This document shows positions 4,302-21,720 of a DNA stretch of 64,000 nt, one piece after another; positions within the stretch are counted from its first letter, which is position 1; every line of letters begins with the position of its first letter. The notes beneath the pieces are model-generated. The model was not told the origin of the DNA and searched no databases. It saw only the letters and a program-made list of their open reading frames with translations. The translations under genes and the position numbers were made by a program. Origin of the DNA: Chloroflexia bacterium SDU3-3 (GTDB taxonomy: Bacteria; Chloroflexota; Chloroflexia; Chloroflexales; Roseiflexaceae); assembly GCA_009268125.1 (NCBI GenBank), contig WBOU01000004.1, positions 406,136-470,135 on the forward strand, in the 5' to 3' direction.

Positions 4302-4330
4302 TTGACAAGAACCCCCTCGGGGGGTATCAT
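4302..4330 (+). promoter_or_regulatory. Promoter of the arginine operon
   Basis: TTGACA (4302-4307), a 17-bp spacer and TATCAT (4325-4330). The spacer contains a small inverted repeat, CCCCC-TC-GGGGG (4312-4323), of unknown meaning. Transcription should start at about 4337-4341, on or a few bases before the ATG of the leader peptide, so the leader mRNA would be leaderless or nearly so. Confidence 0.82.
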
Positions 4331-4340
4331 ATCCCGCGAT

Positions 4341-4421
4341 ATGCTTTATACCTTCGCACAGTGCTATACGCTGCGTCGTCGCACCCGTCGTCCGGCCCGT
4401 AAGGGTCTGGGGCTCGGCTAG
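4341..4421 (+). CDS. Arginine-codon leader peptide of the arg operon (26 aa)
   Basis: ATG at 4341, stop TAG at 4419-4421. Residues 12-20 read RRRTRRPAR: six arginines in nine codons (CGT at 4374, 4377, 4386, 4389 and 4398; CGC at 4380). CGT dominates here, although the neighbouring genes prefer CGC. It lies directly after the arg promoter, has no Shine-Dalgarno sequence, and is followed by competing RNA helices and a terminator before argC. The peptide is probably only a sensor: ribosome stalling at the arginine codons when charged tRNA-Arg is scarce would let transcription continue. No homologue search was possible, so the assignment rests on codon content, position and RNA structure. Confidence 0.82.
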   Translation: MLYTFAQCYTLRRRTRRPARKGLGLG

Positions 4422-4480
4422 CGTGCGTCGCGAAACGTGCATCAGCACATAAGCGCAGATCGTGAACCAGTCCCCGGGCC
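4392..4480 (+). promoter_or_regulatory. Arginine attenuator: competing anti-antiterminator and antiterminator helices
   Basis: Strand 1 (4392-4398) can pair with strand 2 (4403-4410) across a GTAA tetraloop. Strand 2, as 4404-4412 (GGTCTGGGG), can instead pair over nine contiguous positions (seven Watson-Crick, two G-U) with strand 3 at 4472-4480 (CCCCGGGCC). Strand 3 is also the 5' arm of the terminator at 4472-4501, so the helices exclude one another. A ribosome stalled on the arginine codons covers strand 1 and frees strand 2, giving readthrough. A ribosome at the stop codon (4419-4421) covers strand 2, giving termination. The pairings were read by eye, without energy calculation. Confidence 0.75.
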
Positions 4481-4501
4481 AGCTTTGGCACCGGGGTTTT
4501 T
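4472..4501 (+). terminator. Intrinsic terminator (attenuator) before argC
   Basis: Stem CCCCGGGCCA (4472-4481) pairs with TGGC-A-CCGGGG (4486-4496) with one bulged A at 4490 and a 4-base loop, followed by five T residues (4497-4501). It ends 21 bases before the argC start codon, so it can only act on transcripts that begin upstream, as an attenuator. Confidence 0.88.
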
Positions 4502-4522
4502 GTATGTTCGGGGGGCGCTTCT

Positions 4523-5533
4523 ATGATCAAGGTTGGTATCTGCGGGGTCACCGGCTACGCCGGGTACGAGCTGCTCCGCTGGCTTCGGCGGCACCCATCT
4601 GCCGAAATTGTGTTTACCACATCCGAGTCGCAGGCGGGCAAGTCGCTGGCCGAGGTCTTCCCTGGCCCGCTGGACACCCCGCTGCTGGCGGTGGGCGACG
4701 CGCCGCTGGACACGGCAGATGTGGTGTTCCTGGCCCTGCCGCACGGCGTGGCGGGCGAGCTGGCCAAGAAGGCCCTGGCCCAAGGGGTGAAGGTGATCGA
4801 CCTCTCCGCCGACTTCCGGCTGACCACCGCCGAGGCCTACACCACCTGGTACCGCCACGCCCACCCCGCCCCCGAGCTTCTCCCCATCCCCTACGGCCTC
4901 CCCGAGCTGAACCGCGCCGCCCTGGCCGACGCCCCGCTGATCGCGAACCCCGGATGCTACCCCACCAGCGTGCTGCTGGGCCTCGCGCCCATCCTGCGCG
5001 CGAGCAAGCTGGCCAGCCCCACCGTGATCGTCGACTCGAAATCGGGCGTCTCGGGCGCTGGCCGCGCGCCTAAGCAGAACACCCACTTTGTGGAGGTGAG
5101 CGAGAGCCTCGCGCCCTACAGCATCGGGCGGGTGCACCGCCACGTGGCCGAGATGGAGCAGGAGGCCGCGCGGATCTCGACCGGCATCGCGCCGGAGATC
5201 ATCTTCACGCCGCACCTGCTGCCGATCAGCCGCGGCATCCTCAGCTCGATCTACGTGCCCGTGCCCGCCGACCTGGGCGAGGACGAGATCCGCGCGCTCT
5301 ACGAGCAGCAGTACGCGGGCGAGCCGTTCGTGCGGGTGCTGCCCAAGGGCCAGCTGGCCACGATCGCCCACACCGCCCACACCAACCAGTGCGCCATCTC
5401 GCTGACGCTGGCCCGGCCCGGCCTGCTGATCGTGGTGGCCAGCGAGGACAACCTGGTGAAGGGCGCTGCTGGGCAGGCCATCCAGAACATGAACGTGATG
5501 TTTGGGCTTGACGAGACGACGGGCCTGCTCTAG
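4523..5533 (+). CDS. argC: N-acetyl-gamma-glutamyl-phosphate reductase
   Basis: Third enzyme of arginine synthesis: NADPH-dependent reduction of N-acetylglutamyl phosphate to N-acetylglutamate semialdehyde in the cytoplasm. The N-terminal Rossmann motif GVTGYAG is at residues 8-14. The catalytic cysteine is Cys145 in NPGCYPT. The conserved DSKSGVSGAGR and VHRHVAEMEQE segments follow, and the 336-aa length is usual. It is the first gene of the operon behind the arginine attenuator. argB follows after 35 bases. Confidence 0.97.
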   Translation: MIKVGICGVTGYAGYELLRWLRRHPSAEIVFTTSESQAGKSLAEVFPGPLDTPLLAVGDAPLDTADVVFLALPHGVAGELAKKALAQGVKVIDLSADFRLTTAEAYTTWYRHAHPAPELLPIPYGLPELNRAALADAPLIANPGCYPTSVLLGLAPILRASKLASPTVIVDSKSGVSGAGRAPKQNTHFVEVSESLAPYSIGRVHRHVAEMEQEAARISTGIAPEIIFTPHLLPISRGILSSIYVPVPADLGEDEIRALYEQQYAGEPFVRVLPKGQLATIAHTAHTNQCAISLTLARPGLLIVVASEDNLVKGAAGQAIQNMNVMFGLDETTGLL

Positions 5534-5568: not shown

Positions 5569-6312
5569 ATGACCAGGCTTGTGCTCAAGATCGGCGGCAA
5601 CGACATCGACGACCCGGCCTTCCTGGCCGAGCTGGTGCGCACCGTCGCAGCGCTGAGGCCCCTGCCCGTGCTGGTGCACGGCGGCGGCAAAGAGATCGGC
5701 CAGCTACAGACGGCGCTGGGCGGCGAGCCGCGCTTCGTGGCCGGGCTGCGGGTGACGGACAAGACCGCGCTGGCCGCCGCCGAGATGGTGCTGTGCGGCA
5801 CGGTGAGCACGCGGCTGGTGGCGGCGCTGCTGGCGGGCGGCGTGGACGCGCAGGGCCTGTCGGGCGTGGATCGCGGCCTCATCCGCGTGCGCAAGCTGAG
5901 CCACCCCGAGGGCGATCTGGGCTACGTGGGCACGCCCACCGCCGTGCGCGCTGGGGTGCTGAACGGCCTGCTGGCCGACGGCGCGGTGCCGGTGGTGGCC
6001 CCGATCTCGCTAGGCGATGAGGGGCCGTACAACGTGAACGCCGACGAGGCCGCTGGCGCGGTGGCCGCCGCACTGGGCGACGCCGAGGTGGTGTTTGTCA
6101 CCAATGTGCCCGGCGTGCTGGTGGATGGCGCGCTGGCCGCGCGGCTCGACCGCCAGCAGGTGATCGACCTGATCGACGGCGGCGTGATCACCGGCGGCAT
6201 GATCCCCAAGGTCCGCTCGGCCCTGGCGGCGCTGGATGGCGGCGTGCGGGCGGCGCGGATCACCAACCTGGCTGGCCTGGGCGATGGCTCGGGCACCGTG
6301 ATCTGGCAGTAG
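5569..6312 (+). CDS. argB: Acetylglutamate kinase
   Basis: Second step of arginine synthesis: ATP-dependent phosphorylation of N-acetylglutamate. Amino acid kinase fold, 247 aa, a short ArgB of the E. coli length class. Visible motifs are LKIGGN at residues 5-10 (phosphate binding), VLVHGGGKEI, NVNADEAAGAVAAALGDAEVVFVTNVPGVL (nucleotide site) and GGMIPKV. The related LysW-aminoadipate kinase (LysZ) is the main alternative, but the setting between argC and argA favours ArgB. It follows argC in the same transcript. Confidence 0.94.
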   Translation: MTRLVLKIGGNDIDDPAFLAELVRTVAALRPLPVLVHGGGKEIGQLQTALGGEPRFVAGLRVTDKTALAAAEMVLCGTVSTRLVAALLAGGVDAQGLSGVDRGLIRVRKLSHPEGDLGYVGTPTAVRAGVLNGLLADGAVPVVAPISLGDEGPYNVNADEAAGAVAAALGDAEVVFVTNVPGVLVDGALAARLDRQQVIDLIDGGVITGGMIPKVRSALAALDGGVRAARITNLAGLGDGSGTVIWQ

Positions 6313-7285: not shown

Positions 7286-7810
7286 ATGACCAGTCGGATT
7301 CGGAGCGAGCAGGTTGGGACGACGCCGCGCGACCAGAGCGTGATCGTCGTACGCACGCCAGCCGAGGCGGACGTCACAGCGCTCACCGCCATTGTGAATG
7401 AGAACGCACGGCTTGGACACCTCCTGCCGCGCAGCGAGGCCAGCATCCGCGCGAGCCTGCCCGACTGGCTGATCGCCGAGGTGGATGGCACCGTGGTCGG
7501 CTGCGCGTCGCTGCTGATCATGGGGCAGCAGCTGGTGGAGGTGCGGTCGCTGGCGGTGCTGCCGGCCTACCGCAGCTACGGCATCGGCGCGAAGATCGTG
7601 CGAACGCTGATCGACCAGGCGCGGCGGCGCGGCTACGCCACGGTGTTCGCGCTCACCCGCGCGGTGCCCTTCTTCCTCAAGCTAGGCTTCACCATCACCG
7701 AGAAGGAGCGCTTCCCGGAGAAGGTCTGGCGCGACTGCGCCATCTGCCCGCTCCAGGCCCGCTGCGATGAGACGGCGGTGGTGCTTGAGCTCGACCATTC
7801 CAATCGATAG
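7286..7810 (+). CDS. argA: Amino-acid N-acetyltransferase (N-acetylglutamate synthase, short GNAT type)
   Basis: GNAT-fold acetyltransferase of 174 aa that resembles the stand-alone short ArgA of mycobacteria. The acetyl-CoA loop is VLPAYRSYGIGAKI. The family-typical C-terminus is FFLKLGFTITEKERFPEKVWRDCAICPLQARCDETAVVLEL, with the conserved KVW-x-DC-xx-CP and CDE pattern (given here by its key residues). It would acetylate glutamate with acetyl-CoA as the first step of arginine synthesis. Its place between the LLM gene and carA, with 19- and 78-base gaps, supports this. The later argJ gene can also make N-acetylglutamate, so the cell has both a priming and a recycling enzyme. Confidence 0.85.
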   Translation: MTSRIRSEQVGTTPRDQSVIVVRTPAEADVTALTAIVNENARLGHLLPRSEASIRASLPDWLIAEVDGTVVGCASLLIMGQQLVEVRSLAVLPAYRSYGIGAKIVRTLIDQARRRGYATVFALTRAVPFFLKLGFTITEKERFPEKVWRDCAICPLQARCDETAVVLELDHSNR

Positions 7811-7888
7811 ACCACGGTGCGACGGCGGGCGGCGCTGGCCGCCCGCCGCCGCGCGCCAATAAGCTACTTGCGAGGAGCATTCACAACG

Positions 7889-9034
<1,146 letters not shown>

Positions 9035-9056
9035 CCGCGCGGGGAGCGCAGGAACA

Positions 9057-9208
9057 TTAACCACGAAGACGCGAAGGAGACCGGGAACATAACCACCAAG
9101 ACTCCAAGACACCAAGGAACGAGGGGGTATGAAACCGAAGCGAGCGCTGGGGCAACAAAACCGGCAACATAACCACCAAAACTCCAAGACACCAAGGAGC
9201 GAAGGGGT
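9057..9208 (+). repeat. CCAAG/CGAAG repeats, left flank of the GxxExxY element
   Basis: The stretch starts with the CGAAG variant (AACCACGAAGACGCGAAGG) and holds two CCAAG copies of about 50 bases, 80 bases apart. Each runs from ACATAACCACCAA through CCAAGACACCAAGG to GGTATGAAACC. The second copy ends in the real start codon of the GxxExxY gene (9209). The first ends in a decayed copy of that start (ATG at 9129, out of frame). The left end of the element has therefore been duplicated. Confidence 0.8.
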
Positions 9209-9601
9209 ATGAAACCAGAGCCAACACTTGTGCGTGAAAATGCCATTGGAAAAGGCGTTGTGCAGGCAGCCTACACGGTGCATAAAGCCCTCGGGCCCGG
9301 TCTGTTGGAGCATATCTACGAGGTTTGTTTCTGCCACGAATTGGCAAAACAGGGATTTCAGGTTCAGCGACAGGTTATCCTCCCCATCATCTACGATGGG
9401 ATTATCTTTGAAGATGGCCTGCGGCTGGATGTTCTTGTTGAGAACTGCATCATCTGCGAGCTAAAGGCGGTGCAGGACATGCACGCCGTCTTTACCGCGC
9501 AGCTTATGTCGCACCTCAAACTTGCTCATAAACGGCTTGGTTATCTGATAAACTTTAATGTCCCACTGATAAAGAGTGGCATCAAGCGCCTTGTGCTATA
9601 G
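9209..9601 (+). CDS. GxxExxY family protein (PD-(D/E)XK nuclease-like)
   Basis: 130 aa. The family signature is GLLEHIYE at about residues 30-37, giving the GxxExxY name. A PD-(D/E)XK-like core follows: [18 protein letters not shown], with Asp, Glu and Lys in the expected order. The C-terminus ([33 protein letters not shown], here cited by its ends) is typical of the family. The biochemical role is not established; the fold suggests a nuclease. The gene starts inside a CCAAG repeat, is less GC-rich than carA and carB, and lies between inverted repeats, all of which suggest that it came in as an insertion. Confidence 0.85.
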
Positions 9602-9603
9602 AA

Positions 9604-9632
9604 TCTTGGAGCCTTGGAGCCTTGGTGGTAAA
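9604..9632 (-). repeat. CCAAG repeat, right flank of the GxxExxY element
   Basis: The minus-strand copy of the CCAAG repeat (plus strand CTTGGAGCCTTGGAGCCTTG then GTGG) begins three bases after the GxxExxY stop codon. It ends directly before AAAAAAGGAA, the ribosome binding region of carB. Confidence 0.85.
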
Positions 9633-9645
9633 AAAGGAATCTTTC

Positions 9646-12885
<3,240 letters not shown>

Positions 12886-18381: not shown

Positions 18382-19596
<1,215 letters not shown>

Positions 19597-19616
19597 GCGC
19601 TACCATAGCTGCCAGC

Positions 19617-19658
19617 ACGTTGGGGGGCTTTGCAAAGCCCCCCAACGTTCTTTCTTTT
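19617..19658 (+). terminator. Intrinsic terminator after argG
   Basis: A 15-bp perfect stem (19617-19631 with 19634-19648) with a two-base loop, followed by the T-rich TTCTTTCTTTT. It separates argG from the transglutaminase-argJ pair. Confidence 0.9.
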
Positions 19659-19705
19659 GGAAGGTCGACGGCGCTGTTCTGATGGCACGGCCAGAAGGAG
19701 TGCAT

Positions 19706-20491
19706 ATGCGGCTTACGGCAACCTGCACGATGTCGTTTGATGTGGCCTCGCCCACCCCCATGATCCTGATGCTCCGCCCGCGCAGCGGCCTCGGCCAGTG
19801 GGTCGTCGCCGAGCGCTACGAGCTGACGCCCTTCGCGCCGGTGGTGGAGTACACCGACGCCCACGGCAACCTCTGCCAGCGCATCACCGCGCTGCCGGGG
19901 CCGCTGGAGATCCGCACCCGCGTGGAGGCCGAGACCGCCGATCAGATCGATGTGCAGCCCGGCGCGCCCTTTGTGCCCGCCCAGGATCTGCCGCCGGATG
20001 CGCTCCAGTTCCTGCTGCCCAGCCGCTACTGCGAGTCGGACAAGCTGGGGGCGCTAGCCGCCGAGGTGGCGGGCGACGCCGCCCCCGGCTACGACCAGGC
20101 CGAGCGCATCTGCCGCTGGATCCACACCCAGGTCGCGTATCGCTACGGCGCCAGCGACGCCACCACATCCGCCGCCGACACCGCGCAGCAGCGCGTGGGC
20201 GTGTGCCGCGACTTCGCCCACCTGGGCATGGCGCTGTGCCGCGCGCTCAGCATCCCCGCCCGCATGGTGGTGGGCTACCTCCACCGGCTCGACCCCATGG
20301 ACCTGCACGCGTGGTTCGAGGCCTACGTGGGCGGGCGCTGGTACACCTTCGACGCGACCCAGCCGGAGCCACGGGGCGGGCGAATTGTGATAGCCTATGG
20401 GCGTGACGCCGCCGATGTGGCGATGACCACCCAGTTTGGGCCTGCGACGCTCACGGCGATGCAGGTCTCTGTCTCAGGAGAGAATGAATGA
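19706..20491 (+). CDS. Transglutaminase-like domain protein
   Basis: Transglutaminase/protease-like superfamily protein of 261 aa. An N-terminal beta domain (residues 1-100) precedes the papain-like core. The catalytic triad is visible as Cys in GVCRDFAHL (about residue 168), His in DLHAWFEAY (about 203) and Asp in TFDATQ (about 218). Such bacterial proteins are usually peptidases or amidases, but the substrate is unknown. The ATG at 19706 has AAGGAG upstream; an alternative in-frame start is at 19682. Its stop overlaps the argJ start (ATGA), so the two genes are translationally coupled. It follows the argG terminator. Confidence 0.88.
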   Translation: MRLTATCTMSFDVASPTPMILMLRPRSGLGQWVVAERYELTPFAPVVEYTDAHGNLCQRITALPGPLEIRTRVEAETADQIDVQPGAPFVPAQDLPPDALQFLLPSRYCESDKLGALAAEVAGDAAPGYDQAERICRWIHTQVAYRYGASDATTSAADTAQQRVGVCRDFAHLGMALCRALSIPARMVVGYLHRLDPMDLHAWFEAYVGGRWYTFDATQPEPRGGRIVIAYGRDAADVAMTTQFGPATLTAMQVSVSGENE

Positions 20492-21720
20492 CCGCCCCTG
20501 CTGATATCGACTCGTTCCAGCTGGCCCCTGGTTTCCGCGCCAGCGCGGTGGCCTGCGGCCTGAAGACCAGCGGCGCGATGGCCGCCAGCTCGCTCGACAT
20601 GGCGCTGGTGGCCGCCGACGGCCCCTGCGCCGCCGCTGGCCTGTTCACCACCAACCGCGTGAAGGCCGCCCCGGTGCTGTACGACCAGGAGACCCTGGCC
20701 GCCAACCCGGCGGGCATCCGCGCCGTGATCGCCAACGCGGGCAACGCCAACGCCGTGACCGGCGAGCAGGGCATGGCCGACGCCCGCCGCATGGCCGAGC
20801 TGGCCGCCTACGCCCTGCGCTGCCAGCCCGAGGATGTGCTGGTGCTCTCCACCGGCGTGATCGGCAGGCCGCTGCCGATGGACAAGGTGGCCCAGGGCAT
20901 CGCCGAGGTCACGTCGCCGGTGGCCAACAAGGGCGCGGGCTTCGCGGCCCGCGCCGTGATGACCACCGACACCCGTCCCAAGATCGCGTCTGGCCAGTTC
21001 CAGGTGGCCGGGCAGGTTGTCACCGTCAGCGGCTTCGCCAAGGGCGCGGGCATGATCCACCCGAACATGGCCACCATGCTCTCGGTGATCACCACCGACG
21101 CGGCGATCGCGCCCGCGCTGCTTCAGGATGCGCTGGCCGGGGCCGTGGCTCGCAGCTTCAACCGGATCAGCGTGGATGGCGACATGAGCACCAACGACAC
21201 CGTGCTGCTGCTGGCATCCGGCCTGGTGCCGGTGGGCGAGACGCCCGAGGCGCTGGCGCAGTTCGCCGAGGCGCTGGCCAGCGTGTGCGTGTCGCTAGCC
21301 AAGCAGATCGCAGGCGACGGCGAGGGCGCGACCCGCCTGATCGAGATCAGCGTCAGCGGGGCCGCCGACGAGGCCATGGCCCACACCGTGGCCGACTCGA
21401 TCGCCCGCTCGCCGCTGGTGAAGACCGCCGTACACGGCGGCGACCCCAACTGGGGCCGCATCCTGGCCGCCGCAGGCTACAGCGGGGCCGAGATCGACCC
21501 GCAGCGCATCACGCTCAGCTTTGGGCCGCAGGGCCGCCAGATCACCGTGCTGCGCCAGGGCATGCCCGCCAGCTACGTCGAGCGCGAGGCCGCCGCGCTG
21601 TTCCGCGAAGACCCCGTGCTGATCAGCCTCGACCTGGGGCTGGGCCAGGCCGCCACCACCGTGTGGACCTGCGACTTCAGCAAGGAGTACGTGGAGATCA
21701 ACGCGCACTACACGACCTGA
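20488..21720 (+). CDS. argJ: Bifunctional glutamate/ornithine acetyltransferase
   Basis: ArgJ moves the acetyl group from N-acetylornithine to glutamate and so recycles N-acetylglutamate; some members also use acetyl-CoA. It is a self-cleaving Ntn-type protein. The cleavage site is in KGAGMIHPNMATML, with the nucleophile Thr196. DGDMSTNDTVLLLASG and HGGDPNWGRILAAAGYSG are conserved family segments, and the 410-aa length is usual. The start codon overlaps the transglutaminase stop by four bases. With argA present as well, N-acetylglutamate can be made both anew and by recycling. Confidence 0.96.
   Translation: MTAPADIDSFQLAPGFRASAVACGLKTSGAMAASSLDMALVAADGPCAAAGLFTTNRVKAAPVLYDQETLAANPAGIRAVIANAGNANAVTGEQGMADARRMAELAAYALRCQPEDVLVLSTGVIGRPLPMDKVAQGIAEVTSPVANKGAGFAARAVMTTDTRPKIASGQFQVAGQVVTVSGFAKGAGMIHPNMATMLSVITTDAAIAPALLQDALAGAVARSFNRISVDGDMSTNDTVLLLASGLVPVGETPEALAQFAEALASVCVSLAKQIAGDGEGATRLIEISVSGAADEAMAHTVADSIARSPLVKTAVHGGDPNWGRILAAAGYSGAEIDPQRITLSFGPQGRQITVLRQGMPASYVEREAAALFREDPVLISLDLGLGQAATTVWTCDFSKEYVEINAHYTT

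Follow-up and report, generated by a model that had tools for sequence, protein, structure and literature searches.

The window analysed here, a 64,000-nt stretch of the genome of Chloroflexia bacterium SDU3-3, contains a cluster of arginine genes on its forward (+) strand. Downstream of an ECF sigma factor gene and an intervening control region lies argC (4523-5533), which encodes N-acetyl-gamma-glutamyl-phosphate reductase (TIGR01850, 381.7 bits; cut-off 233.6). It is followed by argB (5569-6312, acetylglutamate kinase; TIGR00761, over cut-off), a gene for a flavin-dependent LLM oxidoreductase, a gene for an ArgA-like GNAT N-acetyltransferase (7286-7810), and carA and carB (7817-12885; TIGR01368 and TIGR01369, over cut-off). 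The acetyltransferase scores 144.6 bits with NF005840 (cut-off 154) and has a weaker similarity to N-acetylglutamate synthase models. carA extends to 9034 and carB occupies 9622-12885, and the true starts of these genes may be further in. argG (18382-19596) and argJ (20488-21720) lie further down in the same cluster (18382-21720; matches to TIGR00032 and TIGR00120). Between carA and carB, at 9209-9601, the cluster is interrupted by a 130-aa ORF that is GxxExxY-like by eye. In family f3, argC, argG, argJ, and argF follow one another on a single strand in a span of about 8 kb. (It should be noted that f3 is probably Herpetosiphonaceae, and that the family names of several relatives are inferred.)

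The first-pass annotation had placed a TTGACA-N17-TATCAT promoter and a 26-codon, arginine-rich ORF in front of argC, and both are present on the + strand. The σ70-type promoter (4302-4330), identified by consensus matching, has its -35 element TTGACA at 4302-4307, a 17-nt spacer, and its -10 element TATCAT at 4325-4330, which together give 11 of 12 matches, compared with 0.1 from shuffles; relatives keep its distance from the -35 element to the ATG. The leader ORF (4341-4421), encoding MLYTFAQCYTLRRRTRRPARKGLGLG followed by a stop codon, starts 10 nt 3' of the -10 box and is thus nearly leaderless. A transcript start past 4421, which would have refuted the proposal, is not what the promoter predicts; the expected start is instead 5' of the ORF. 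By codon count, the control region (4374-4400, + strand) has six Arg codons in nine, five of them CGT and one CGC, as had been described. When the 250 nt upstream were dinucleotide-shuffled, 3 of 1000 sequences contained an ORF as rich in arginine. In nine genes nearby, CGT accounts for 9 of 290 Arg codons. The -35/-10 spacer also contains a short inverted repeat (4310-4324, CCCCCTCGGGGG); it is absent in most relatives read, and no operator role is claimed for it.

Downstream of the control region, the RNA can adopt alternative helices. The 3' end of the ORF contains strand 2 (4404-4412, GGTCTGGGG), which forms 9 bp, including two G-U pairs, with strand 3 (4472-4480, CCCCGGGCC), as the first reading of this region had proposed from the letters. 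Strand 3 is also the 5' arm of an intrinsic terminator (4472-4501), which consists of a stem-loop at 4472-4496 and a U-tract of five T at 4497-4501, is found at the same place in relatives, and ends about 21 nt before argC. Since the antiterminator and the terminator share 4472-4480, the two helices are mutually exclusive. When folding starts from the stop-codon state, the terminator that had been predicted is the minimum free energy structure (z -2.0). Strand 1, proposed at 4392-4398, does pair with the strand 2 region, but the helix is smaller, 5 bp between 4394-4398 and 4403-4407, and this protective 1:2 hairpin is kept only in part of the Roseiflexaceae. (All of these elements lie on the + strand.) Neither the antiterminator duplex of the window alone (z -1.1) nor its whole-leader fold (z -1.25) is remarkable compared with shuffles. 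The significance does not come from the window's own duplex or fold scores, but from its relatives.

To what extent the layout is general was judged from argC upstream regions sampled at the level of family, order, and phylum and in other phyla. Roseiflexaceae, Herpetosiphonaceae, and a number of further Chloroflexota families have this layout before argC, so that the upstream comparison that had been suggested finds the leader ORF with its many Arg codons, the spacing of the promoter, and the terminator kept in relatives across the phylum. More distant leaders, in Ardenticatena, Thermoflexus, Anaerolineae, and other families, retain the ORF rich in Arg together with the terminator, and their 5' UTR can be longer. 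A stem plus T-run lies 17-167 nt upstream of argC in the leader-bearing genomes listed. A detector requiring an ATG ORF of 12-36 codons with at least 4 Arg per ten residues, a terminator 10-75 nt past the stop, and a duplex of -12 kcal/mol or better between the ORF end and the terminator arm was positive in 44 of 127 argC upstream regions, compared with 2 of 2,540 dinucleotide shuffles. When any other residue replaced Arg in the detector, there were 0-7 positives, indicating that the signal is specific for arginine. The element is absent from the Chloroflexaceae and family f2 sequences examined. Applying a very lax filter to 63 argC loci, mostly from other phyla, gave weak matches only, none convincing; many of these matches were the C-terminus of an apparent ribosomal protein S9.

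The peptides themselves differ between families except for their arginines (LRRRTRRP, LRRADRRRVR, LRLRRPRT, PRRERRSRP, RSRRSRR), and the codons used for these arginines avoid the favoured CGC. In Roseiflexus-like leaders, CGT accounts for 45 of 76 Arg codons, and argC there uses CGC; in the leaders of genus g8 (L095-L101), CGA accounts for 34 of 41 and is rare in their argC (7 of 122). These counts indicate that codons uncommon in genes tend to serve the leaders, with the codon chosen depending on the lineage. The distance of the leader ATG from the promoter is conserved in many relatives. In nearly all Roseiflexus-like and Herpetosiphon relatives, the ATG lies 39 nt from the start of the -35 element, as in the window; this distance is 36 nt in genus g8 and 36-38 nt in some genera of f1 (Roseiflexaceae) and f3. 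Given this spacing, the leader mRNA in f1 and f3 is probably leaderless or nearly so. A pattern of this type (TTGACA-N15-18-TANNNT-N4-13-ATG) occurs 53 times in the genome of SDU3-3, compared with 3 occurrences of a reversed-pattern control, and leaderless genes have been put at about 5% in Chloroflexi genomes where they are detected (PMC3160421). Reading 30 of the 53 loci for other amino-acid leaders revealed only that of argC as resembling an Arg leader.

Evidence that strand 2 and the terminator arm belong together comes from their co-variation. Over 26 clusters, the duplex formed by a leader's own pair of arms has a mean energy of -19.8 kcal/mol, compared with -15.7 +/- 0.6 kcal/mol when arms are swapped between clusters; none of 20,000 species-swap permutations paired as well as the own pairs, and strand 2 compared with shuffled strand 2 gave a Stouffer z of -11.2. 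Within the Chloroflexales, where a fixed 10-bp register can be followed, three pairs have changed on both sides and 89% of cells are paired; shuffling lowers this share to 84 +/- 1.4%, and sliding the register lowers it to 64% or less. (This comparison is based on a small sample, and because strand 2 lies within coding sequence, some of its conservation may be spurious.) In farther relatives, the strands are wholly different and still complementary, for example TGTGTCTGG/CCAGACACA and TGAGGTTCG/CGAACCTCA. Compensatory changes had been named as a check for both alternative helices. The antiterminator helix is kept with such changes, both in the cluster swaps and in the Chloroflexales register, but the 1:2 hairpin is not general: it is strong in L092, L086, and L095 (Roseiflexaceae) and weak or absent elsewhere, and with a mean z of -0.55 its general conservation is unsupported. 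In GC-rich leaders, individual duplex z-scores are weak (-1.1 for the window, about 0 for L093).

The spacing of these parts and the simulated folding of ribosome-bound states fit the proposed geometry, in which a stalled ribosome frees strand 2 and a ribosome at the stop codon masks it. In most clusters, throughout the phylum, the centre of the Arg codons is about 21 nt 5' of strand 2, and so a ribosome stalled there would end just short of strand 2. With a ribosome simulated on the fourth or fifth Arg codon while strand 3 is emerging, the antiterminator probability in the window is 1.0, compared with 0.05 in ribosome-free RNA; a ribosome on any of the first three Arg codons still leaves the window in the opposite fold. 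A similar stalling shift is seen in the simulated folding of L084, L085, L117, and L122. When the ribosome is placed at the stop codon, the terminator remains. In Herpetosiphon and others, strand 2 ends about 23 nt short of the last base of the stop codon, a distance at which a ribosome at the stop would mask strand 2 only in part. Folding of the two states thus agrees with the proposal as long as strand 3 is emerging, when stalling shifts the RNA to the antiterminator, but not at equilibrium: once strand 4 is out, the completed terminator is mostly favoured, even with a stalled ribosome. Such a switch must therefore act co-transcriptionally and kinetically, as in known attenuators.

A search with PF01316 (ArgR) gives no match in the genome of SDU3-3 and is positive in control genomes, and the genes do not qualify as an ArgR regulon. 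Among 301 sampled Chloroflexota genomes, 71 have an ArgR over cut-off; these include 0 of the 21 leader-bearing genomes (one of which, L114, was counted by eye) and 71 of the other 280. The distributions of ArgR and the leader do not overlap at the family level, and a large number of genomes carry neither of the two. Because the genomes are related, a simple test of the contrast would be unsafe. Comparison of the leader with Rfam gave nothing near gathering score that would indicate a T-box or known riboswitch.

The anatomy of the element and its conservation are observed, as are the co-variation between strand 2 and the terminator and the lack of ArgR; taken together, they argue that the element is a ribosome-mediated transcription attenuator for arginine. 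We give this reading a probability of about 0.88, without data from expression, ribosome-profiling, or termination experiments; that the ORF is translated and ribosomes stall on it, and in which direction and by how much the cluster responds, is inferred. In this process, transcription would begin a few bases 5' of the leader ATG, and a ribosome would load immediately, the Chloroflexales version being probably read from a nearly leaderless mRNA. When charged arginyl-tRNA is ample, the ribosome would pass through the Arg codons to the stop and mask strand 2, leaving strand 3 free to form the terminator, and transcription would end before argC. When arginine is scarce, the ribosome would stall on the Arg codons with its footprint ending just 5' of strand 2, which could then capture the emerging strand 3; no terminator would form, and the arginine cluster would be transcribed. 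In part of the Roseiflexaceae, the 1:2 hairpin may set a default-off state when the leader is untranslated. The attenuator would stand in for ArgR, which is missing from the leader-bearing genomes.

Leaders can also sense through the peptide they encode, and fungal AAP and bacterial ornithine-sensing leaders are precedents for arrest-type leader peptides. Arginine itself, or a positively charged peptide within the exit tunnel, rather than a shortage of charged tRNA, could in this case stall the ribosome, as in AAP or SpeFL, and RRP or LRR motifs do recur in the leaders. However, only Arg is conserved in the peptide between families, and with this geometry, stalling induced by arginine would increase expression when the amino acid is abundant, opposite to what a biosynthetic operon requires. 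We consider nascent-chain arrest unlikely. Even less support exists for the idea that the leader ORF acts mainly on argC translation or mRNA stability, by coupling or re-initiation, with the hairpin being secondary. Salmonella speF provides the model, since the Arg codons of its short orf34 (SpeFL) sense arginine, as proposed here, and act on speF via RNase G and Rho, with no part played by an intrinsic terminator (PMC6386406). That system differs from the Chloroflexota leader in its target, an ornithine decarboxylase, in its Rho-dependent termination without an intrinsic terminator, and in its unrelated peptide. Assignment to the orf34 type was rejected: the leader has no HIRR-type core before speF, argC is downstream, and an intrinsic terminator is present. 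In addition, the stem plus T-run before argC recurs in the leader-bearing genomes, and the 5' arm of this terminator is the specific target of strand 2, which leaves a primary role in translation or stability very improbable. The least credible explanation is that the ORF is a chance product of GC-rich sequence and the hairpin a mere terminator of the upstream ECF sigma factor gene. Arg is common in what GC-rich sequence encodes, and in a few per cent of individual shuffles, 4 Arg in 10 residues also arise. Against this, the terminator sits 3' of a near-consensus promoter and directly before argC, it co-varies with strand 2, and the combination of ORF, terminator, and matching strand 2 in the detector far exceeds shuffles for Arg only.

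Textbook accounts of bacterial arginine synthesis centre on ArgR, and those of leader-peptide attenuation on a small set of amino acids, chiefly in Proteobacteria and Actinobacteria. The proposed arginine attenuator shares with those of trp, his, leu, thr, ilv, and phe a short leader ORF with many codons for the pathway product and, as in classical systems, a mutually exclusive antiterminator and terminator at the head of a biosynthetic operon; it differs from them in sensing arginine, in belonging to Chloroflexota, in having almost no 5' UTR (Chloroflexales), and in lacking a general 1:2 hairpin. Like the attenuators of Actinobacteria and the hisS leaders of Bacilli, it would be a case of non-proteobacterial leader-peptide attenuation. 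With the ArgR regulon it shares arginine-responsive control of the same genes, but that regulon depends on a protein repressor, which neither this genome nor the leader-bearing families have. A 2013 survey found Rfam attenuators only for His, Leu, Thr, and Trp, those for Ile/Val and Phe being described elsewhere (PMC3766115); a survey of actinobacterial leader peptides reported none upstream of arginine operons (PMC1262725); and neither Chloroflexi nor argC comes up in the main text of a broad survey of attenuators from 2010 (PMC2965389). No earlier description of a leader-peptide attenuator for bacterial arginine biosynthesis was found in the open literature, although subscription work may have been missed. 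The suggestion that an arginine leader might be undescribed in this lineage therefore holds within that scope, and novelty is likely, not proven.

The recurrence of the element in distant members of the phylum suggests that arginine shortage is sensed there by the speed of the ribosome on arginine codons. We think there is a good chance that Arg-specific attenuation, leaderless in the Chloroflexales, is an old device of a large part of the Chloroflexota that replaces ArgR, with the layout kept while the helix sequences and the rare Arg codon (CGT or CGA, by clade) turn over. A large part of this deep phylum is without ArgR and appears to rely on a ribosome-based arginine sensor, which would extend attenuation to a further amino acid and a further phylum and supply a regulator where none was known. 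The mRNA, probably near-leaderless in some lineages, offers a case in which the coupling of leaderless translation to transcription can be tested, and the switch of control codon from CGT to CGA between genera is a natural test of theories of isoacceptor sensitivity to starvation.

Other arginine loci were considered. A second ArgC-type gene in the genome of SDU3-3 (contig C22) has a GNAT gene upstream and no leader, so this control is not common to both copies. Among relatives, Arg leaders before argG or argJ gave a sole match (L222), which was not recurrent. On contig C22, a candidate leader for argF (L285, 1302-1434) encodes MAHISDKNLRATTGAMPQLRRFFRRM followed by a stop codon, with a strong terminator 17 nt on and then argF; no such leader was seen upstream of argF in the relatives read, and it is a lead only. 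A different RNA precedes argC in seven genomes of genus g16, probably Chloroflexus (L126, L127, L129, L130, L131, L135, and L136), which are without the Arg leader. This RNA is conserved, structured, and about 165 nt long, lying in L126 about 305 to 140 nt 5' of argC; it is followed by a conserved 28-aa ORF (MFTRxLxFLRRLxQIHPAVIAIAPDRTW) and then argC. It has no Rfam match in the three loci tested and is single copy where checked. An invariant 8-bp long-range pairing (GGCGCATC/GATGCGCC) lies outside its nested fold, making it a pseudoknot candidate.
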